From Actinomycetota bacterium (GTDB lineage: Bacteria; Actinomycetota; Geothermincolia; Geothermincolales; RBG-13-55-18), in contig JACIXD010000003.1 in the NCBI GenBank assembly GCA_014360645.1, forward strand, positions 186,001 to 250,000: DNA of 64,000 nucleotides, given 5' to 3'. The notes under the pieces are model-generated. The model searched no databases, had not been told where the DNA came from, and saw nothing but the letters and a program-made list of their open reading frames with translations. Of this stretch, positions 3,303 through 22,896 are shown one piece after another (position 1 is the stretch's first letter; every line of letters starts with the position of its first letter). A program made the position numbers and the translations under genes.

Positions 3303-5045
3303 TTGTCCGTGAACAGGAGCGAGGAGCTCAGCCGGGCCTTCGAGGAGCTGGCGGAGCTCTCGGAGATCAAGGGCGAGGTGCGTTTCAAGGTCAACGCCTA
3401 CCATAAGGCGGCGGAGATCGCGCGCGCCCGCGGCGAGGAGCTCCTGGCCTTGGACGACGTCAAGGAGCTGCGCAGGTACCCGGGTATCGGCGAGGGCATC
3501 GCCAAGAAGATCCTGGAGTTCAAGCGCACCGGCACCATCTCCAAGCTGGAGGAGCTGAAAGAGGAGGTGCCGGTGGAGCTCCTCTCCCTCCTCCAGGTCC
3601 CCAACCTGGGACCGAAACGCGCCAAGCTCATCTATGACGAGCTGGGGGTGCGCACGCTGGAGGAGCTGCAGGCGGCGGCGGAGGAGCATCGGCTGGCCGA
3701 GCTCCATGGCCTGGGGCCCAAGGCGGAACAGAACATCCTGGAGGGCATTAGACACCTGCAGTCCACCTCGGGGCGGCTTCTGCTCCACACCGCACACCGC
3801 ATCCAGGAGGAGATCTCACGCGCCCTGGAGTCGGAGCTCCCCGGCCTGCGCATCAGCCCGGCCGGGAGCCTCAGACGCATGAAGGAGACCATCGGGGACA
3901 TCGATATCCTGGTGGCCTCCCGCGAGCCGGCGGCGGTCATGGAGTCCTTCTGTTCCCTGGAGATGGTGGAGAGGGTGCTGCTGCGGGGTGATACCAAGAG
4001 CTCGGTGGTCACCGCGGAGGGGCTCCAGGTGGACCTCAGGGTGGTGAAACCGGAGGAATACGGCGCGGCGCTGCAGTATTTCACCGGCTCGCAGGCGCAC
4101 AACGTTCACGTGAGGGAGATCGCCAAGAAGGCGGGCAAGAAGATCAACGAATACGGGGTCTTCCGCGTCAGGGACGACCGCAGGCTGGCGGGGGAGACGG
4201 AGGAAGAGGTCTACGCGGCGCTGGGCATGGCCTGCCCGCCCCCGGAGATAAGGGAGGACCGCGGGGAGGTGGAGGCCGCCCTGCGGGGCGAGCTGCCGGA
4301 GCTGGTGGAGCGTGGGGACATCCGGGGGGACCTGCACACCCACACCGACGCCAGCGACGGGGTAGCGGACCTGTTGGAGATGCGCAAGGCCGCGGAGAGG
4401 CTGGGGTACCGCTTTCTCGCGGTCACCGACCACGCGGCGGGCCTGAAGGTGGCGGGAGGGCTGTCCCGGGAGCGCCTGCTGCGGCAGGTGGAGGAGATCA
4501 GAAAGCTCAACGCCAGGGGGGATTCCCCCGTGGTCCTGCTGGCGGGAAGCGAGCTGAACATAGACGGCGAAGGGGGACTGGACTACGACGAAGAGGTCCT
4601 CTCCCTTCTGGACGTGGTGGTGGTATCGGTGCACGCGGGATTCCGTCAGGACCGCGAGGCGGTGACGCGGCGGGTGCTACGGGCCATACGCAACCCCCAC
4701 GTCAAGGTCTTCGCCCACCCTACGGGGAGGCTCATCGGTCAGAGGCCTCCCTACGACATCGATCTCGGCGCGGTGATGGAGGAGGCGCGCAGGACGGACA
4801 CCGCCCTGGAGCTGAACGCCTTCCCCGACCGCCTGGACCTGGGAGACGAGAACCTCATGCGGGCGTGTGCTCAAGGGGTGAAGGTGGCAATCGGCACCGA
4901 CGCCCACCGGCCGGAGCACCTCGACTTCATGTTCTTCGGGGTGGCCACGGCGAGGCGGGGCTGGCTCGCCCCCTCCCACCTCCTGAACGCCCTCGAGCCG
5001 GAAGAACTGCTGGCCTGGCTGTGGCGCGGCCGCGACAGGCACTGA
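3303..5045 (+). CDS. polX: DNA polymerase/3'-5' exonuclease PolX (family X with PHP domain)
   Basis: This is a 580-residue bacterial family X polymerase, a repair enzyme for gaps and abasic sites. In order: N-terminal helical 8-kDa-type domain with two helix-hairpin-helix motifs (YPGIGEGIAKKI, VPNLGPKRAKLIY); a nucleotidyltransferase palm with GSLRRMKETIGDIDILVAS, the GDID aspartates near residue 200 being catalytic; and a C-terminal PHP domain from about residue 340 with metal ligands in DLHTHTDASDG, VTDHA, FAHPTG and IGTDAH. The TTG start at 3303 follows GGAGGGGG; GTG 3309 is an alternative. Its last 74 bases belong to the first unit of a 119-bp tandem repeat, so copies of the C-terminal codons follow the stop. 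Confidence 0.95.
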   Translation: MSVNRSEELSRAFEELAELSEIKGEVRFKVNAYHKAAEIARARGEELLALDDVKELRRYPGIGEGIAKKILEFKRTGTISKLEELKEEVPVELLSLLQVPNLGPKRAKLIYDELGVRTLEELQAAAEEHRLAELHGLGPKAEQNILEGIRHLQSTSGRLLLHTAHRIQEEISRALESELPGLRISPAGSLRRMKETIGDIDILVASREPAAVMESFCSLEMVERVLLRGDTKSSVVTAEGLQVDLRVVKPEEYGAALQYFTGSQAHNVHVREIAKKAGKKINEYGVFRVRDDRRLAGETEEEVYAALGMACPPPEIREDRGEVEAALRGELPELVERGDIRGDLHTHTDASDGVADLLEMRKAAERLGYRFLAVTDHAAGLKVAGGLSRERLLRQVEEIRKLNARGDSPVVLLAGSELNIDGEGGLDYDEEVLSLLDVVVVSVHAGFRQDREAVTRRVLRAIRNPHVKVFAHPTGRLIGQRPPYDIDLGAVMEEARRTDTALELNAFPDRLDLGDENLMRACAQGVKVAIGTDAHRPEHLDFMFFGVATARRGWLAPSHLLNALEPEELLAWLWRGRDRH

Positions 5046-5269
5046 GGGGCAGGTTACCGGGCACGGTCGAAGATGAGTGCAACCTGCACGCCTCCCACCT
5101 CCTGAACGCCCTCGAGCCGGAAGAACTGCTGGCCTGGCTGTGGCGCGGCCGCGACAGGCACTGAGGGGCAGGTTACCGGGCACGGTCGAAGATGAGTGCA
5201 ACCTGCACGCCTCCCACCTCCTGAACGCCCTCGAGCCGGAAGAACTGCTGGCCTGGCTGTGGCGCGGCC
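4972..5269 (+). repeat. 119-bp tandem repeat over the polX 3' end (two full copies plus 60 bp)
   Basis: Direct units begin at 4972, 5091 and 5210, each with CCTCCCACCTCCTGAACGCC. Units one and two appear identical. The third is cut after 60 bp at GGCGCGGCC, where the sequence diverges. Unit one contains the last 24 codons and stop of polX plus 45 bp downstream. Because 119 is not a multiple of three, later copies shift frame relative to the gene. They occupy most of the 349 bp between polX and the next gene, and no gene was seen in that gap. Confidence 0.97.
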
Positions 5270-6959: not shown

Positions 6960-8075
6960 ATGAGCGAGGGATTCAACCTCCTTGAGCAGGGAGAACGGCT
7001 GCTGGCCGAGAACCGCCTGGAGGAGGCCATAGAGCGCTTCCGGCGCTACCTGGACGATTATCCCGAGGACGTTGACGGGCAGTACCAGCTGGGCATAGCC
7101 CTTTACGAGAAAGGGGAGCTCGAGGAGGCGGTGCTGCGCTTCGAGAGGGTGAGGGACCTGAACCCGGAGGACCCCCGCGGCTATGACGGCCTGGCCCTGG
7201 TGATGATGGAGCGCGGCGACTACGGGGCGGCGGCAGAGCTCTACCGCCGAGCGCTGGAGATGGACCCGGAGAACGTGGATCTCCTCAACGAGCTGGGCAT
7301 CGCCTACCACGAGCTTGGCGAGGAGGAGATGGCCCTGGAGGCCTACGAGAAGGCCATCCAGCTCGAGCCCAACTTCGGCTATCCCTACTACAACAAGGCG
7401 AGGCTGCTGGCGGGAAGGGGATACCATGAAGAGGCCATCCACAACCTGGAGACCGCCATAAGCCTGTACAAGGGGGAGCGCGAGAAGCTCATCGACGTCC
7501 TCTTCGAGCTGGCGGCGGTCTACGAGGACATCCTCGACGACGAGAGAGCCACCCAGACCTACAGCGAGATCCTCCTCCTGGACCCCGAGAACCTGGAGGC
7601 CCTGGGCTGCCTGGGCTCCATCCATCTCGACAACTGCGACTACGAGAAGGCGGCGGCCTACTTCGACCGCCTCATCCGCCTCGACCCTCAGAACGACAAC
7701 GCCTACCTCGAGAAGGGCTATGCCGTGGGCTGCATGGGGGACGTGGAGGCGGAGCTCCAGTACCTGGACAAGTGCCTGGCCATAAACCCCCGCAACAAGT
7801 ACGCCCTCAGCAACAAGGGGGCGGCGCTCATGGAGCGGGGCATGCTCGAGGAGGCGGAGCGCTTTCTGCGCGCGGCGGTGGAGGTGGATCCCGGGTACTC
7901 CTGGCCGTACTACAACCTCGCCTGCCTCTATGCCCTGAGGGGGGACAAGGAGCGGAGCCTGGACCACCTCAGGCGGGCCCTGGACCTCGACCCCGAGCTC
8001 AAGGAGGACGCCCTGAGGGACTCCTGCCTGGAGGGCCTCCGGCATCACAAGTCGTTCCGGGAACTGCTCGAGTAG
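6960..8075 (+). CDS. Tetratricopeptide repeat protein
   Basis: A 371-residue protein built almost entirely of about ten TPR units (for example YDGLALVMMERGDYGAAAEL, and units ending in ALEMDPEN, AIQLEPN, LLLDPEN, LAINPRN and ALDLDPEL). No signal peptide, membrane segment or enzymatic domain is visible, so it is probably a cytosolic protein-protein scaffold. ATG 6960 is chosen because GGAGGAGAGG lies immediately upstream and the repeats start within ten residues; an upstream in-frame ATG at 6888 would add an Arg/Ser-rich stretch. It is the last plus-strand gene before the convergent PBP gene. The partner is unknown. Confidence 0.85.
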   Translation: MSEGFNLLEQGERLLAENRLEEAIERFRRYLDDYPEDVDGQYQLGIALYEKGELEEAVLRFERVRDLNPEDPRGYDGLALVMMERGDYGAAAELYRRALEMDPENVDLLNELGIAYHELGEEEMALEAYEKAIQLEPNFGYPYYNKARLLAGRGYHEEAIHNLETAISLYKGEREKLIDVLFELAAVYEDILDDERATQTYSEILLLDPENLEALGCLGSIHLDNCDYEKAAAYFDRLIRLDPQNDNAYLEKGYAVGCMGDVEAELQYLDKCLAINPRNKYALSNKGAALMERGMLEEAERFLRAAVEVDPGYSWPYYNLACLYALRGDKERSLDHLRRALDLDPELKEDALRDSCLEGLRHHKSFRELLE

Positions 8076-8118
8076 GGGCCCCTCCCTAGCGGCGGAAGCC
8101 GCGTCATCACCCCTGACG

Positions 8119-8143
8119 GTCCGGGGAGCGGCGAACCCCGGAC
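8119..8143. terminator. GC-rich hairpin between convergent genes
   Basis: A perfect 8-bp stem (GTCCGGGG / CCCCGGAC) with a 9-nt loop lies between the ends of the TPR and penicillin-binding protein genes. There is no T-run on either strand, so it would be the tailless type of terminator proposed for high-GC Gram-positive bacteria. The position supports this; function is inferred. Confidence 0.5.
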
Positions 8144-8197
8144 AGCAGCGCCTATTACCTGCACAGCATATGGTATCCGCGAGAGGCGTTTTGCGCC

Positions 8198-10645
8198 TCA
8201 GGTCTTTCCCACGGTGATGATGACCTGCGCTCCGGGGCTCGCGGACGCCCCGGCGCCCGGGAACTGGCTGATGACCGTGCCCGCCAGGGAGGGATCCGAG
8301 GGACTGTAGACCACCTTGTAGGTGAAGCCGGCGCCCGTCAGGGCCTCCTTGGCCGCGGTCTCGCTCATGCCCACCACGCCGGGCACCCTGGACTGAGGCG
8401 AAGGCCCCTGGCTCACGGTTATGGAGACGTGGGAGCCCGCGCTGACGGTGGTGCCCGCCAGGGGGGACTGGCCGATCACCGTGCCCTTGGGGGCGGTGTC
8501 CGAGTAGGCGTAGTTGACCACCGGATTGAGTCCCACGCCGCGTATGGCCGCCACCGCGCCGCTCTCGGACATCCCCGTCACCCCCGGCACGTTGACGCGC
8601 TGGTTCTGAGGGTTGTGGATGGTGCACTGCTGGGTGGGCTCCTCGCCGCGCCGGAAGGTGCGCGACTCGGTATGAGGACACAGGGAGGTCGCCAGGAGCC
8701 CGCTCTCGGTGCAGATGGTCACGGTGACCCACTCCGATTCCTCCTCTTCGTCTCCGTACCCGAACTCCGCCCGGGGGAACTCGCTGGCCGGCACGTCCTT
8801 CAGGGCCTTCTCCATGAACTTCTTCCAGATCTGGGCGGGGAAGGTGCCCCCATAGACGGTGATGCCGTGCACGCTGCGCATGGGGACCAGGCCCTGGGGG
8901 TACCCCACCCATACCGCCGCCGAGAGGTCGGGGGTGTAGCCGCAGAACCAGGCGTCGGCATAGTTGTCGGTGGTGCCCGTCTTGCCCGCCTGGGGGCGGT
9001 CGATGCGAGCGGCGCGGCCCGTGCCGTGGCGCACCGCGTCCTGGAGGATGGAGTTGACCACCGCCGCCACGTCCTCGCGCACCACCCGCTTACCCTTGGG
9101 GGCATGCTCGTAGAGGACCTCTCCGCCGGCGTCGGTGATCCTCAGCACGCAGGTAGGGGGGACGTAGACGCCGTTGTAGGCCAGGGTCCCGAAGGCGCTG
9201 GCCATCTCCAGGGGATTGACCTCGCAGCTCCCTAGGGCGATGGAGGGGTAGGGAGGGATGTTGGATTTGATGCCCATGGCCTGGGCCATCTGCGCCACCC
9301 TCTGGGGGCCGACGTCGCGGATCAGCCGCGCGTATACCACGTTGACGGAGCGCACGGTGGCGGCATAAAGGTTTATGGTCCCGTAGCTCGAGCCCTCGGC
9401 ATTGCCCACCTTCCACTTGGTGCCGTCGGGGAACTCCAGGGTGGTGGGGGAGGAGTCGTAGGTCTTGTAGGGGGAGATGCCGTTGCTTATGGCCGTGGTG
9501 AGCACGAAGACCTTGAAGGCGGAGCCCGGCTGACGCCCCCCCTGGGCGGCGATGTTGTACTGCTGTTCGCTGTAATCCTTTCCCCCCACCATGGCCTTGA
9601 TCTCCCCCGTACGGGGGTCCACCGCGCACAGGGCTGCGGCGGGGTCTCCGGGCCGGTCCAGGGTGGAGGCGATGGCCTCCTCGGCGTAGCGTTGCATATC
9701 CAGGTCGAGGGTGGTGTAAACGCGCAGCCCTCCGCGGAAGATGATGTCGTCGGGGGATAGGTCGCCGAAACGCGCCCGCAGGTCCTGGTCGCCCGCGAAG
9801 AGGTTGTAGAGGTACTTCTTCACGTACTCTACGAAGTAGGGGGCGACGGTGCTGGGGCTCTCCTCGGGTATCGGTTTCACCATCTTGTCCTCGCCCACCT
9901 CCACCCGCTGCGCCTTGGCCTCCGCGGCCTCCGAGGCGGTGATGTAACCCAGGTCCCTCATCTTGTCCAGGACCAGGTTTCGCCGCGCCTCGGCGGCGCC
10001 GGGGTTGAGATACGGCGAATAGTAGTTGGGGATGCGGATGACCGCCGCCAGCAGCGCCGCCTCGCCGAGGGTGAGCTCCGAGGGCTGCTTGTGGAAGAAG
10101 ACCTCGCAGGCCTTCTTAACCCCGTAGCAACCCTGCCCGAAATAGACGTCGTTGAGATACATCTCCAGGATCTTGTCCTTGGAGTATCTGCGCTCGAGCT
10201 GGAAGGCCAGGCTGGCCTCCTCCACCTTCCTCCAGTAGGTCCTCTCCTTGCCGGTAAGGGTGTTCTTCACGTACTGCTGGGTGATGGTGGAGGCGCCCTG
10301 CACCACCTGGCCCTGCACCACGTTGGTCCAGAAGGCGCGGGCGATGGCCCTCCAGTCCACTCCACCGTGCTGGTAGAAGCGCTCGTCCTCGATGGCGATG
10401 ACCGCTTCCCGCAGGTTCTCGCAGATCTGGTCCAGGGTGACGTTCTCGCGGTTCTGCTCCCCGTGCAGCTCCGCGATGACCGTGCCGTCGGCGGCGATGA
10501 TCTTGGAGGTCTGGTCCAGGCGCAGCTTGCCCAGGCTATCCAGACGGGGAAGCCCTATGCCGGTGTAGAACCAGAAGAGGAAGCCGCCCGTCATCAGCGC
10601 CAGGCAGAGGAAAACGATCAGGCCGATCCTGAGCATCACGCGCAT
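8198..10645 (-). CDS. Class A penicillin-binding protein (transglycosylase/transpeptidase) with two PASTA domains
   Basis: An 815-residue bifunctional peptidoglycan synthase. Residues 7-28 form a signal anchor. The GT51 transglycosylase follows, with catalytic EDERFYQHGGVDW (Glu86) and GASTITQQYVKN. The transpeptidase has SxxK at Ser375-Lys378 (GSAFK), SVN at 433-435 and KTGTT at 555-559. Two C-terminal PASTA domains (about 685-750 and 752-815) each begin with VPGV and would sense muropeptides or beta-lactams outside the cell. This matches PonA-type enzymes of Gram-positive bacteria and implies a PASTA-type cell wall. It begins ATG at 10645 and is divergent from tyrS. Confidence 0.96.
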   Translation of the reverse strand: MRVMLRIGLIVFLCLALMTGGFLFWFYTGIGLPRLDSLGKLRLDQTSKIIAADGTVIAELHGEQNRENVTLDQICENLREAVIAIEDERFYQHGGVDWRAIARAFWTNVVQGQVVQGASTITQQYVKNTLTGKERTYWRKVEEASLAFQLERRYSKDKILEMYLNDVYFGQGCYGVKKACEVFFHKQPSELTLGEAALLAAVIRIPNYYSPYLNPGAAEARRNLVLDKMRDLGYITASEAAEAKAQRVEVGEDKMVKPIPEESPSTVAPYFVEYVKKYLYNLFAGDQDLRARFGDLSPDDIIFRGGLRVYTTLDLDMQRYAEEAIASTLDRPGDPAAALCAVDPRTGEIKAMVGGKDYSEQQYNIAAQGGRQPGSAFKVFVLTTAISNGISPYKTYDSSPTTLEFPDGTKWKVGNAEGSSYGTINLYAATVRSVNVVYARLIRDVGPQRVAQMAQAMGIKSNIPPYPSIALGSCEVNPLEMASAFGTLAYNGVYVPPTCVLRITDAGGEVLYEHAPKGKRVVREDVAAVVNSILQDAVRHGTGRAARIDRPQAGKTGTTDNYADAWFCGYTPDLSAAVWVGYPQGLVPMRSVHGITVYGGTFPAQIWKKFMEKALKDVPASEFPRAEFGYGDEEEESEWVTVTICTESGLLATSLCPHTESRTFRRGEEPTQQCTIHNPQNQRVNVPGVTGMSESGAVAAIRGVGLNPVVNYAYSDTAPKGTVIGQSPLAGTTVSAGSHVSITVSQGPSPQSRVPGVVGMSETAAKEALTGAGFTYKVVYSPSDPSLAGTVISQFPGAGASASPGAQVIITVGKT

Positions 10646-10812
10646 TTCCGGACCCCTTTACGCGCAAAGGCCGTCAACAGGAATTGTACCTATAATTAGA
10701 TTTCGTTTGTAGGGGCACGGTTCCTCTCGCCGCTTCAAAATGCCCGGCGCGGCGGCTCTGGGCGCGGACGGGAGCGCTTTACCGGCCGGGGTGCTTGCGG
10801 TATCCTTTTTTA

Positions 10813-11008
10813 GACATCGCGGAGGAGAGGCCGTGGCGCTGGTGAAGGACCCGGAATACCAGATGAAGGTGATCCTCTCGGGCGCGGCGGAGTGCCTGCC
10901 CGAGAAAAGCCCGTTGGACATCGCGTAGGAGAGGCCGTGGCGCTGGTGAAGGACCCGGAATACCAGATGAAGGTGATCCTCTCGGGCGCGGCGGAGTGCC
11001 TGCCCGAG
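10813..11008 (+). repeat. 104-bp tandem duplication of the tyrS 5' end
   Basis: Bases 10813-10904 recur at 10917-11008 with a single mismatch (10822 G, 10926 T). Twelve unique bases, AAAAGCCCGTTG, separate the copies. Each copy contains the ribosome binding site GGAGAGG, a GTG start and the first 24 codons of tyrS. The 104-bp period is not a multiple of three, so only the second copy reads into the full gene. Confidence 0.97.
10833..10928 (+). other. Putative leader ORF made from the duplicated tyrS start
   Basis: GTG 10833 behind GGAGGAGAGG opens 31 codons. The first 24 equal the TyrS N-terminus (VALVKDPEYQ...), followed by KSPLDIA and stop TAG 10926-10928. The stop uses the only base that differs between the two repeat copies (GAG to TAG). 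It ends 8 nt before the tyrS GTG at 10937, a spacing that would allow translational coupling. Whether it is translated, or simply a by-product of the duplication, cannot be told from sequence. Confidence 0.4.
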
Positions 11009-12190
11009 GGAGACCTCGCGGCCAAGGTGGAGAGGGCCATTGCGGAGGAGCGGCCCCTGAGGGTAAAGCTGGGGGTGGACCCCACCCGACCCGACCTCCA
11101 CCTCGGGCACGCCGTGCCCCTGCGCAAGCTGCGGCAGTTCCAGGACCTCGGCCACACCGCCATCCTCCTCATCGGTGACTTCACCGCCCTGGTGGGAGAC
11201 CCCTCCGCGCGCGACGTCACCCGTCCCCAGCTCACTCCGGAAGAGGTCAGGGCCAATGCCGCCACCTACGCCGAGCAGGCCTTCCGCATCCTGGACAGGG
11301 AAAGGACGGTGCTGGAATACAACAGCCGCTGGCTGGCGCCCCTGACCTTCGCCGAGCTCCTGCGGCTCACCGCCCATTTCACCGTGGCCCGCCTGCTGGA
11401 ACGCGACGATTTCGCGAGGCGCTACGCCTCCAACCTCTCCATCGGCCTGCACGAGTTCCTCTACCCGGTGATGCAGGCCTACGACTCGGTGGCCCTGGAG
11501 GCGGACGTGGAGATCGGGGGCACGGACCAAATCTTCAACCTCCTGGCGGGAAGGGAGCTGCAGCGCGACCTCGGACAGGAGCCCCAGAGCGTCCTCACCC
11601 TACCCATCCTGGTGGGCCTGGACGGGGAGAAGAAGATGTCCAAGAGCCTGGGCAACTACGTGGGCCTCACCGATCCCCCCGAGGAGATGTTCGGTAAGCT
11701 CATGTCCCTCTCCGACGAGCTCATGCCGGATTATTTCCGCCTCACCACCCCCCTGGAACCGGGGGAGGTGGACGCCCTACTTGCGGATCTGGAATCGGGA
11801 GCCATCCACCCCATGCGCGCCAAAAGGCGCTTGGCCGCGGAGGTGGTGGGCCTTTACTGGGGACCGGAGGCCGCGGAGGAGGCGGAGCGTGCCTTCGACC
11901 GCGTGCACGTGGAGAGGGAGGCGCCGGAGGAGATCCCGGTGGCGGAGATAGACCCACGGGAGCTCGCGGGCGGAGCCATCTGGCTTCCCCGCCTTCTGGC
12001 GCTGGCCGGGCTGGCCTCTTCCAGCAGCGAGGGAAAGCGACTGGTGGCCCAGGGGGGGATAAGACTGGGCGACCGCGTGGTGGACGACGTGGACCTGGAG
12101 CTCACGCGCGAGGAGCTGGAGGGCCTGCTCATCCAGAAGGGAAAACGGCACTTCCGCCTCATCAGGCTCGGGGAGGGGGACGGGAGTTGA
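10937..12190 (+). CDS. tyrS: Tyrosyl-tRNA synthetase
   Basis: A class I aminoacyl-tRNA synthetase of 417 residues that charges tRNA-Tyr. The HIGH-type motif is HLGH (55-58). VEIGGTDQIFNLL is the tyrosine/ATP-site region. The KMSKS loop is exact at 233-237, as in TyrZ-type enzymes, rather than the KFGKT of the E. coli enzyme. A C-terminal S4-like RNA-binding domain (SSSEGKRLVAQGGIRLGDR) occupies about residues 350-415. GTG 10937 with AGGAGAGG upstream is chosen; in-frame extension to 10892 would run into the duplicated segment. No T-box specifier or AGGGTGG-type motif is visible in the leader. Confidence 0.95.
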   Translation: MALVKDPEYQMKVILSGAAECLPEGDLAAKVERAIAEERPLRVKLGVDPTRPDLHLGHAVPLRKLRQFQDLGHTAILLIGDFTALVGDPSARDVTRPQLTPEEVRANAATYAEQAFRILDRERTVLEYNSRWLAPLTFAELLRLTAHFTVARLLERDDFARRYASNLSIGLHEFLYPVMQAYDSVALEADVEIGGTDQIFNLLAGRELQRDLGQEPQSVLTLPILVGLDGEKKMSKSLGNYVGLTDPPEEMFGKLMSLSDELMPDYFRLTTPLEPGEVDALLADLESGAIHPMRAKRRLAAEVVGLYWGPEAAEEAERAFDRVHVEREAPEEIPVAEIDPRELAGGAIWLPRLLALAGLASSSSEGKRLVAQGGIRLGDRVVDDVDLELTREELEGLLIQKGKRHFRLIRLGEGDGS

Positions 12191-12438
12191 GGCAACCCCC
12201 CGATGCTCCGCTCACCGCGAGACAGCGGGCGGGGACGCCGGCCTCCCCGTGGCCTCTCATGGCCCGTAGGTGACAACGCCCGGGTGCGGCGTGGCGGTGA
12301 CGGTCGCTGCCGCCTTCTCTCGCGCGGCGGGAGGCGAAGGCGAGCGGGGGCGGTTCACCGATGGCCGCTGCATGTCGGACCTGCCCGCAGGCGGCGGTGT
12401 CCGCGCCGGATACGAGGCGGCAGCGGCAGATACACCCT

Positions 12439-12467
12439 TTGACATGCCCTTTTGATGGTGTTATCAT
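12439..12467 (+). promoter_or_regulatory. rRNA promoter P1 (TTGACA-N17-TATCAT)
   Basis: A perfect -35 TTGACA (12439-12444), 17-bp spacer and -10 TATCAT (12462-12467) with an upstream TG (12459-12460), so it is also an extended -10 promoter. It is the strongest consensus promoter in the window. It lies 330 bp before the 16S gene, with the predicted start near 12474. The rest of the gap from 12191 to 12438 shows no gene. Confidence 0.8.
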
Positions 12468-12563
12468 AAAATTTGCGGCAAGCCCGCCGGGTTTTATCCC
12501 GATTGATAAAAAGGAGGCGGTATTCCGGATACTTTTGGAAACACTTCAAGGGTTATACGGGAT

Positions 12564-12586
12564 GCCGCTGGAGAAGCGGCGTTTTT
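12564..12586 (+). terminator. Hairpin plus T-run inside the 16S leader (possible attenuator)
   Basis: Stem GCCGCT / AGCGGC (12564-12569, 12575-12580) with a 5-nt loop is followed directly by GTTTTTG. It lies after promoter P1 and just before a second TTGACA, so it could partly terminate P1 transcripts or insulate P2. The stem is only 6 bp, hence weak. Confidence 0.5.
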
Positions 12587-12598
12587 GATGCCGTGACG

Positions 12599-12627
12599 TT
12601 GACAGGGTATGCTGCGCGTGCTACTTT
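12599..12627 (+). promoter_or_regulatory. rRNA promoter P2 (TTGACA-N17-TACTTT)
   Basis: A perfect TTGACA at 12599-12604 is followed at 17 bp by TACTTT, a weak -10. It lies downstream of the leader hairpin and 35 bp before the 16S processing stem. A two-promoter rRNA leader is common in bacteria. Confidence 0.5.
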
Positions 12628-12661
12628 GTAGCCTTGTTGGATTCGGCGCTTGAGCCGTGTT

Positions 12662-12697
12662 CCTTGAAAACTAAACAGCGTAAAAGACAGAGAGAGT
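12662..12697 (+). promoter_or_regulatory. 16S leader: boxA-like element and 5' arm of processing stem
   Basis: The leader CCTTGAAAACTAAACAGCG and the following 15 bases pair with the 16S trailer at 14390-14420 (CGCTGTTTAGTTTTGAAGG and preceding bases). This would form the long RNase III-type stem enclosing 16S. The preceding TGTTCCTTGAAAAC also resembles the boxA antitermination element of Gram-positive rRNA leaders. Similar CTTTGAAAAC/CCTTGAAAAC elements precede 23S and 5S. Confidence 0.75.
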
Positions 12698-12796
12698 AGA
12701 GCTCCAATCAATTCCGTTCCGATCCGCCCCTGGGTGGATCGCGGCCGGTAGGGAGCCCGGATACGCTCCAAGTATGTAAGTCCGCAAGGACTGCAT

Positions 12797-14346
<1,550 letters not shown>

Positions 14347-14389
14347 GGGAAAAGCCGCATGGCATGCGGCGACCAACAAACGCATCCGT

Positions 14390-14420
14390 CTCTCGTCTTT
14401 GCGCTGTTTAGTTTTGAAGG
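14390..14420 (+). other. 16S trailer, 3' arm of processing stem
   Basis: Complementary to the leader at 12662-12697 (core CGCTGTTTAGTTTT). It lies immediately before the terminator hairpin at 14423, so the precursor ends right after its own processing site. Confidence 0.75.
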
Positions 14421-14422
14421 AA

Positions 14423-14451
14423 TCGGCGCCACGGCGCCGAATCCTTTTTTT
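14423..14451 (+). terminator. Rho-independent terminator directly after 16S
   Basis: Stem TCGGCGCC / GGCGCCGA (14423-14430, 14433-14440) is followed by ATCC and seven Ts (14445-14451). It is a textbook intrinsic terminator placed about 80 nt after the 16S 3' end and before the 23S gene. From 14452 to 14692 nothing further is recognised. Confidence 0.85.
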
Positions 14452-14692
14452 CGGAAAGGTTGCTACGGAGTGCCGCCGTAACCGGTCCGCGTGGCGACGG
14501 GATACCGGGAGTGGAAGCACGCTTTCCCTCACCGGGAGGTGGAGGGCGGGCTTCAGGAGAGGAGCGTCCCGCGGGTCCGCCGGTAGCGCGGATGGGAGGA
14601 GTCGGCGGGTGCGTTTCTCCGCTGCGGGAGCAGATGCTCGGGACGGCGCGGATGGCGGTGGCGAAGATGTTCGATGAGGCTGCTCTTGATTG

Positions 14693-14701
14693 TGCTATAG
14701 T
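14693..14701 (+). promoter_or_regulatory. Extended -10 promoter TGCTATAGT
   Basis: TG-C-TATAGT without a good -35, giving a predicted start near 14708. It is about 160 nt upstream of the membrane-protein gene between 16S and 23S. Two copies of TATCCGCGAC (near 14729 and 14760) lie in the resulting leader. Confidence 0.55.
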
Positions 14702-14866
14702 TTTAGAGTATTCATGCTGGGGAAGAATATCCGCGACAGGCGAAGCGGGGAGGCAACGGTATCCGCGACGGGAAAGAGGTATTTCGGGGCGCACGAAAAA
14801 TAATATAGGAGGAAAGGCGAAGGCGTCTTGCCCGAAACGGGCGTAGAGGGAAGAAAGGAGCGTGTG

Positions 14867-15391
14867 ATGGTACAGCAACCGCCAGGACCCCCGCCGGGAG
14901 GCATGCAGCCACCGCCCCCGCCACCGGGACAGCCGCCGCAGGCTCCCATGGGTCCGCCGAAGGTCCAGCTCGACACCTCGAAGCTGCCCATACCCGACCT
15001 GGTGGTGGCAGGAGGGGCTCTGCTCTGCTGGATCTTCGCGCTGCTGGGATGGTACAAGGCGAGCGTCGAGTTCTTTGGCTCCGCGACCGGCAAGGGCGGT
15101 TACCAGTGGTGGCCGTGGACCATCTACTTCCTGCTCTTCCTCTTCGCGGGGTTCATGATCGCCAACGAGATGGGCAACTTCATGTCCCTGAGCCTCCCCA
15201 CGGGCTTGATCTACCTGGGATGGGGCGCGGCGGGGACCCTGTTCACCCTGCTCGGCTTCCTCTTCAAGCCCAGCGTGGGGTTCGGCATCGGGGTGAAGAT
15301 GGGCATGAACTGGCCGGTTTGGATCATCATGATCCTCCTTTCCCTGGTGCCCATCGCCGGCGGCTTCATGAAGTTCAAGGAGGCGAAGTAG
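14867..15391 (+). CDS. Four-TM membrane protein with Pro-rich N-terminus, between 16S and 23S
   Basis: 174 residues. The first 40 or so are Pro/Gly/Gln-rich (PPGPPPGGMQPPPPPPGQPP), followed by four hydrophobic segments (starting near LVVAGGALLCWIF, TIYFLLFLFAGFMI, LIYLGWGAAGTLFTLLGF and WIIMILLSLVPIAGG). Such disordered-tail plus small-TM proteins are common in Actinobacteria and have no assigned function. ATG 14867 follows GAAAGGAG at good spacing. It has its own extended -10 promoter and sits after a terminator that ends the 16S transcript, so it is a real gene inserted in what would normally be the 16S-23S spacer. It may read through into 23S. Confidence 0.8.
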   Translation: MVQQPPGPPPGGMQPPPPPPGQPPQAPMGPPKVQLDTSKLPIPDLVVAGGALLCWIFALLGWYKASVEFFGSATGKGGYQWWPWTIYFLLFLFAGFMIANEMGNFMSLSLPTGLIYLGWGAAGTLFTLLGFLFKPSVGFGIGVKMGMNWPVWIIMILLSLVPIAGGFMKFKEAK

Positions 15392-15421
15392 AAAAAACTC
15401 GAGGGTCACCTGGATGACCTA

Positions 15422-15449
15422 TTGACCGCGGGCTTATAATTATTATAGG
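15422..15449 (+). promoter_or_regulatory. Candidate 23S promoter region (AT-rich)
   Basis: TTGACC (15422-15427), 16 bp, TATAGG (15444-15449), with a perfect TATAAT also at 15435-15440, in an otherwise GC-rich context. It lies between the membrane-protein stop and the 23S leader. A hairpin (GAGCGCA / TGCGCTC, 15462-15484) follows. Which -10 is used cannot be decided from sequence. Confidence 0.5.
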
Positions 15450-15500
15450 ATTCGTTTTTGTGAGCGCATCTTCGGGGTGCGCTCTTGATTCGGGATCGTA

Positions 15501-15529
15501 CCTTGAAAACTGCACAGTGATCGAAGAGG
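15501..15529 (+). promoter_or_regulatory. 23S leader: boxA-like element and 5' processing arm
   Basis: CCTTGAAAACTGCACAG and following bases pair with the 23S trailer at 18565-18593 (CTGTGCAGTTTTGAAGG). This gives the 23S processing stem, separate from that of 16S. Confidence 0.75.
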
Positions 15530-15534
15530 TTGTT

Positions 15535-18564
<3,030 letters not shown>

Positions 18565-22312: not shown

Positions 22313-22420
22313 AAGCCGGCCTCCCGCGGTCAAAGAGGCGAACGAGGGGGAGAACATGCCCCAGCGGCCTACATCCTCTCCGGGCCGCGGCTCCGTGACC
22401 TCGGACGGACTGTGGCTGTA

Positions 22421-22896
22421 TCCATCCCATGAGGATGCGGAGGAGGTCGAAGCGGCGGGACCTGCTCCCCGTCACCGGCCGGGCGTCTTCGTCGGCATCG
22501 GCCGAGGCCTCGAATCCGCGGACCTGGAGGAACGCCGTCTTTCCTGCGGGAGCTGGGTTTTACAGGGCTCTTTGGCGGAGGAAAAGCCCGTGCGCCTTCT
22601 GAGTGACCTCACATGGGCAGGTCTTATATCCATCCCATGAGGATGCGGAGGAGGTCGAAGCGGCGGGACCTGCTCCCCGTCACCGGCCGGGCGTCTTCGT
22701 CGGCATCGGCCGAGGCCTCGAATCCGCGGACCTGGAGGAACGCCGTCTTTCCTGCGGGAGCTGGGTTTTACAGGGCTCTTTGGCGGAGGAAAAGCCCGTG
22801 CGCCTTCTGAGTGACCTCACACGGGCAGGTCTTATATCCATCCCATGAGGATGCGGAGGAGGTTGAAGCGGCGGAACCTGCTCCCCGTCACCGGCC
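22421..22896 (-). repeat. 208-bp tandem repeat over the 3' end of a radical SAM gene (two full copies plus 60 bp)
   Basis: Units start at 22421, 22629 and 22837 (each TCCATCCCATGAGGATGCGG). The third, 60-bp partial unit is the true 3' end of the minus-strand radical SAM gene and has two mismatches to the others. Read on the minus strand, each full unit still encodes a near-identical tail, PVTGSRSRRFDLLRILMGWI, against PVTGSRFRRFNLLRILMGWI in the gene. A one-base difference (ACATGGG or ACACGGG) separates the full copies. The array fills most of the 519-bp gap after the FmdB gene. Confidence 0.96.

Follow-up and report, generated by a model that had tools for sequence, protein, structure and literature searches.

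A recent tandem duplication as the probable origin of the leader ORF ahead of tyrS in an actinobacterial genome

The start of tyrS in an actinobacterial genome is present twice in tandem, and the first copy opens a short out-of-frame ORF that ends just ahead of the gene. Is this leader a switch that evolved to set the level of TyrRS, or is it the scar of a duplication? In the window (i.e. the whole stretch of 64,000 nucleotides of DNA that was analysed), the locus is made up as follows:

10778-10806, plus strand: candidate promoter of tyrS (TTTACC-N17-TATCCT), which some of the family share; here it lies 159 nt before the tyrS start
10813-10904, plus strand: repeat copy 1, with the native leader, a GGAGGAG ribosome site, GTG and tyrS codons 1-24
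10833-10928, plus strand: leader ORF of 31 codons, from GTG 10833 through VALVKDPEYQMKVILSGAAECLPEKSPLDIA to the stop TAG 10926-10928
10905-10916, plus strand: junction filler AAAAGCCCGTTG, the 12 nt that separate the copies
10917-11008, plus strand: repeat copy 2, with ribosome site TAGGAG, the working tyrS start and the first 24 codons
10926-10928, plus strand: TAG stop of the leader ORF, arising from a G-to-T difference, its AG belonging to the second AGGAG
10937-12190, plus strand: tyrS, tyrosine--tRNA ligase, 417 codons

Compared position by position, 10813-10904 recurs as 10917-11008 with a period of 104 and one mismatch in 92 nt, a match which cannot be due to chance. The tandem duplication of the ribosome site, start and 24 codons that a sequence-only reading of this DNA had described was therefore confirmed in the assembled sequence. 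The single mismatch that it reported holds for copies taken from 10813, but not for the longer direct repeat (10810-10904 and 10914-11008, spacing 104, 98% identity), as copies that begin at 10810 differ at two positions, 10812/10916 (A/G) and 10822/10926 (G/T). Such near-identity of adjacent copies is what marks a recent short tandem duplication. The filler is absent from both outer flanks, its last 3 bases partly matching the flank of copy 1.

The protein encoded downstream matches the NCBIfam family tyrS (TIGR00234) with 349 bits against a cut-off of 114, and its first residue, read from GTG 10937, aligns with the start codon of the family members; on the strength of this alignment, the GTG of copy 2 is the true start of tyrS. 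The gene is neighboured by a divergent PBP1A-type gene and by a 16S-23S rRNA locus.

The ancestral state was read from relatives, namely Candidatus Solincola and other Actinomycetota contigs together with whole-genome relatives. The search for the 104-bp duplication in related genomes, which the earlier reading had proposed as a check, showed that it is absent from all the members of the same family in which the tyrS start is covered: a single start was found in 11 of 11, as is expected if the duplication is recent. The same-genus genome G001 gave no match to a tyrS ortholog and is uninformative for this comparison. A motif of the form TTTRCC-N17/18-TATYCT lies at -53 to -57 in five relatives (L003, L004, L005, L011 and L013), and the same pattern is found at -42 in L014 and at -159 in the window. 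The pattern is rare: both strands of 1.6 Mb of the genome contain it just 5 times. The leader of G002, a genome of the same genus, runs TTTACC-N17-TATCCT-TTTTTCGACATGGAGGAGGAAGGGTA-ATG, and that in the window, up to the start of copy 1, TTTACC-N17-TATCCT-TTTTTAGACATCGCGGAGGAGAGGCC-GTG. The displacement of the motif from -53 to -57 in relatives to -159 here indicates that a 104-bp segment was inserted in the lineage of the window, and that copy 1 retains the native leader, while copy 2 continues into the native gene. The motif-to-start distance was used for this purpose instead of the MAFFT alignment of the leaders, which smeared the gap and gave no clean 104-bp insertion. A scan for the sigma-70 consensus found no promoter; the conservation of the motif makes it a candidate tyrS promoter. 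Because it stands just ahead of copy 1, ribosomes on the mRNA would reach the leader ORF first.

The leader ORF stops 8 nt before GTG 10937. A stop-to-start distance of -8 to +10 nt has been taken as predictive of coupling, which in reporter work occurred at short distances, with a loss of 40-80% once the distance was +14 nt in E. coli; where two genes are +9 to +12 nt apart, the second mostly possesses a ribosome site of its own and may start independently (PMC10666635). The distance at tyrS falls within the predictive range, and the geometry is indeed favourable for termination-reinitiation, as had been suggested. Since tyrS at +8 nt also has its own AGGAG, its initiation could be either independent or coupled. 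The predicted pairing with the anti-SD sequence is -11.2 kcal/mol for the GGAGGAG of copy 1 and -8.0 kcal/mol for the TAGGAG of copy 2, the weaker site, the G-to-T change being responsible for the drop.

The same change creates the stop. Relatives read GGAGGAGG at this site, and the T of copy 2 is thus the derived base. The sequence-only reading was right that the mismatch makes the TAG that closes a 31-codon ORF, but not that the ORF ends before the second ribosome site, as the TAG runs into it (T-AGGAG). It had also considered that this mutation looks selected, a view which the present data do not sustain. The copies differ at only two positions, and that one of these makes the stop is suggestive, but without statistical weight for selection; among the 126 possible single changes in 10905-10946, 8 shorten the leader ORF; and if G is restored at 10926 in silico, the ORF still stops 13 nt inside tyrS (38 codons, TGA 10947-10949). 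In addition, another gene of the same genome reaches a like geometry without any such mutation (see below).

Signals of known kinds of control were also sought. An Rfam scan of 8000-16500 returned only rRNA, with no T-box or other known RNA family. The 31 leader codons include a single Tyr, and no terminator was found in or just after the leader ORF, the only terminator-like site lying upstream, at 10788-10806, on the promoter motif. A stable leader structure that would hide the second ribosome site was considered and rejected, the fold being no better than that of shuffled sequences (z -0.92 and -1.50).

How unusual such a duplication is in this genome was judged from near-identical tandem arrays (matches of 94% or more, period of 60 or more) called with Tandem Repeats Finder. 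In a partial census of 1.6 Mb of this genome (G000), 48 arrays were found in 1,595,357 bases, i.e. 3.0 per 100 kb, and the tyrS repeat would, by extrapolation, be one of roughly a hundred of its kind. Repeats of this type being common here, its presence is not in itself remarkable. In the same genus, 7 arrays were found in 160 kb of G001 (4.4 per 100 kb) and none in 155 kb of G002; 480 kb from three other genera yielded 2 (0-1 per 100 kb), against 14.4 expected at the G000 rate, and these differences may partly be a matter of assembly quality, since fragmented short-read assemblies collapse repeats. The periods in G000 are mostly 83-167, and junction fillers (copy number below 2.0) are frequent. 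By a simple codon-based gene finder, whose calls are approximate (one of the five start calls is a mis-call), 23 of the 48 arrays are intergenic, 10 overlap gene ends or stops, 5 were called at starts and 10 lie inside genes. All ten in-gene arrays have a period divisible by 3. This placement is what real duplications give, that is, mutation filtered by purifying selection. Two further arrays lie in the window, separate from tyrS and products of the same process:

4972-5269, plus strand: 119 bp x 2.5, 100%; the array takes in the 3' end of a gene for a PolX/PHP-type DNA polymerase, whose stop codon and tail are thereby repeated
22419-22896, no strand assigned: 208 bp x 2.3, 98%, reaching into a minus-strand gene at its 3' end

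As a separate observation, several arrays hold similar dispersed motifs that resemble REP-type repeats, GGGGTCACATCTTCGATC in G000 (C4 4885-5083 and 12255-12575) and AAGCAAAGCGAGGAAAAATTCAAGATACGACCCC in G001 (C1 and C3).

Besides tyrS, three genes with duplicated starts were found in the sampled part of G000:

C5:106024: 473-codon gene with no Pfam match; array L229:5988-6312 (C5:105988-106312 of G000), three perfect 107-bp copies
C5:191698: DUF2229 gene, related to 2-hydroxyglutaryl-CoA dehydratase; 7-codon leader ORFs that stop 124 nt short of the next start
C5:176976: MazG-like gene; leader ORF overlapping the gene by 31 nt

The repeat unit at C5:106024 comprises a ribosome site, ATG and 12 codons, and gives two identical 33-codon leader ORFs whose TGA lies within the ribosome site, 5 nt before the next ATG. 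The gaps of 5, 124 and -31 nt show that the geometry is not constant across duplicated starts, and the arrangement seen at tyrS is one outcome among several, which arises with no special mutation. A leader ORF ends 5-8 nt before the next start in two of the four duplicated starts, tyrS included, and these two leaders might conceivably have a function. A further candidate, C3:7146-7671, was dropped, as it looks like a mis-called frame lying antisense to what reads as the 3' end of a galT-like gene. A search of the literature for gene-start tandem duplications and for papers on the genus found nothing direct.

A selected regulator, in which the leader ORF tunes TyrRS either through termination-reinitiation or by acting as a decoy start, and the G-to-T change owes its fixation to this role, would agree with the 8-nt gap and with a leader ORF that is first on the mRNA and has the stronger ribosome site. 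We nevertheless regard it as quite unlikely, since the duplication occurs in none of the relatives compared, a similar geometry exists at an unrelated gene without the mutation, and the leader has one Tyr codon, no terminator in or just after the ORF, no Rfam match and an ordinary fold (z -0.92). Frequent gain and loss of copies of about 100 bp at gene starts might also amount to reversible tuning across the genus, with tyrS caught in one setting and every added copy placing one more leader ORF ahead of a gene and so resetting its translation; this appears very unlikely. Hardly credible is a longer TyrRS, with its N-terminus duplicated or extended. The tyrS frame is open from 10814 and contains a GTG at 10892, and a -1 shift from the frame of the leader ORF leads into tyrS; however, ribosome pairing at 10892 is weak (-5.0 kcal/mol), no canonical X XXY YYZ slippery heptamer is seen on reading the sequence, and relatives start at the position of 10937.

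The repeat might, on the other hand, be an assembly artefact, produced from a single copy in the cell by the tandem joining of contig ends that overlap or of variants from different strains. The assembly is a draft of 34 contigs, and the mismatches lie together close to one edge of copy 2, a pattern that contig ends of poor quality would produce. Assembly errors should not respect the reading frame, however, and its preservation in the ten in-gene arrays (chance about 1.7e-5), or in six of six if four 300-315-bp repeats of large repetitive proteins are set aside (about 0.0014), argues that the arrays are real DNA. Moreover, many arrays have 2.5 to 7 copies, beyond what simple overlap errors give, and the independent assembly of G001 has the same array density. 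In principle, the reality of most arrays would not prevent the tyrS copy from being an error, but an artefact seems unlikely.

The explanation that we consider probable is a recent and nearly neutral tandem duplication, which would incidentally have coupled translation of TyrRS in part to a leader ORF; most likely, then, the leader is a scar left by chance and not a switch that evolved. According to this explanation, a tandem duplication with a short junction filler would have doubled the leader of tyrS together with its ribosome site and codons 1-24, and would have been tolerated because copy 2 still supplies a complete ribosome site and an in-frame start for the full-length enzyme. A single native promoter would drive the mRNA, on which the first, stronger ribosome site would open the out-of-frame leader ORF; translation of TyrRS would begin independently at the weaker site of copy 2, which overlaps the leader stop, and would probably be helped by ribosomes that finish the leader ORF just upstream.

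Taken alone, the tyrS case matters little. It suggests that duplication of a start region is tolerable because the copy carries its own ribosome site and start, and that a leader ORF close to a gene can arise without selection; the excess of arrays warns against taking such leaders for regulatory elements. This wider pattern deserves study, as the presence of dozens of fresh short tandem duplications in one actinobacterial genus may point to unusual replication slippage or repair.

Compared with known systems, the locus shares with T-box and leader-peptide control of aminoacyl-tRNA synthetases a leader element before a synthetase gene, but not the T-box match, the run of Tyr codons or a terminator between ORF and gene. 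As in termination-reinitiation coupling (PMC10666635, PMC6728339), the stop of an upstream ORF lies no more than about 10 nt from the next start, whose ribosome site the ORF overlaps; here, however, that ORF is itself derived from the downstream gene as a truncated copy, tyrS has its own ribosome site, and the coupling is putative. Bacterial genomes also contain short tandem duplications and VNTR-type minisatellites, in which near-identical units of about 80-200 bp follow one another head to tail, mostly between genes and in some cases in frame within them, and from which the present arrays differ in their density (about 3 per 100 kb, above most of the family members sampled) and in that several of them duplicate a ribosome site together with a start.
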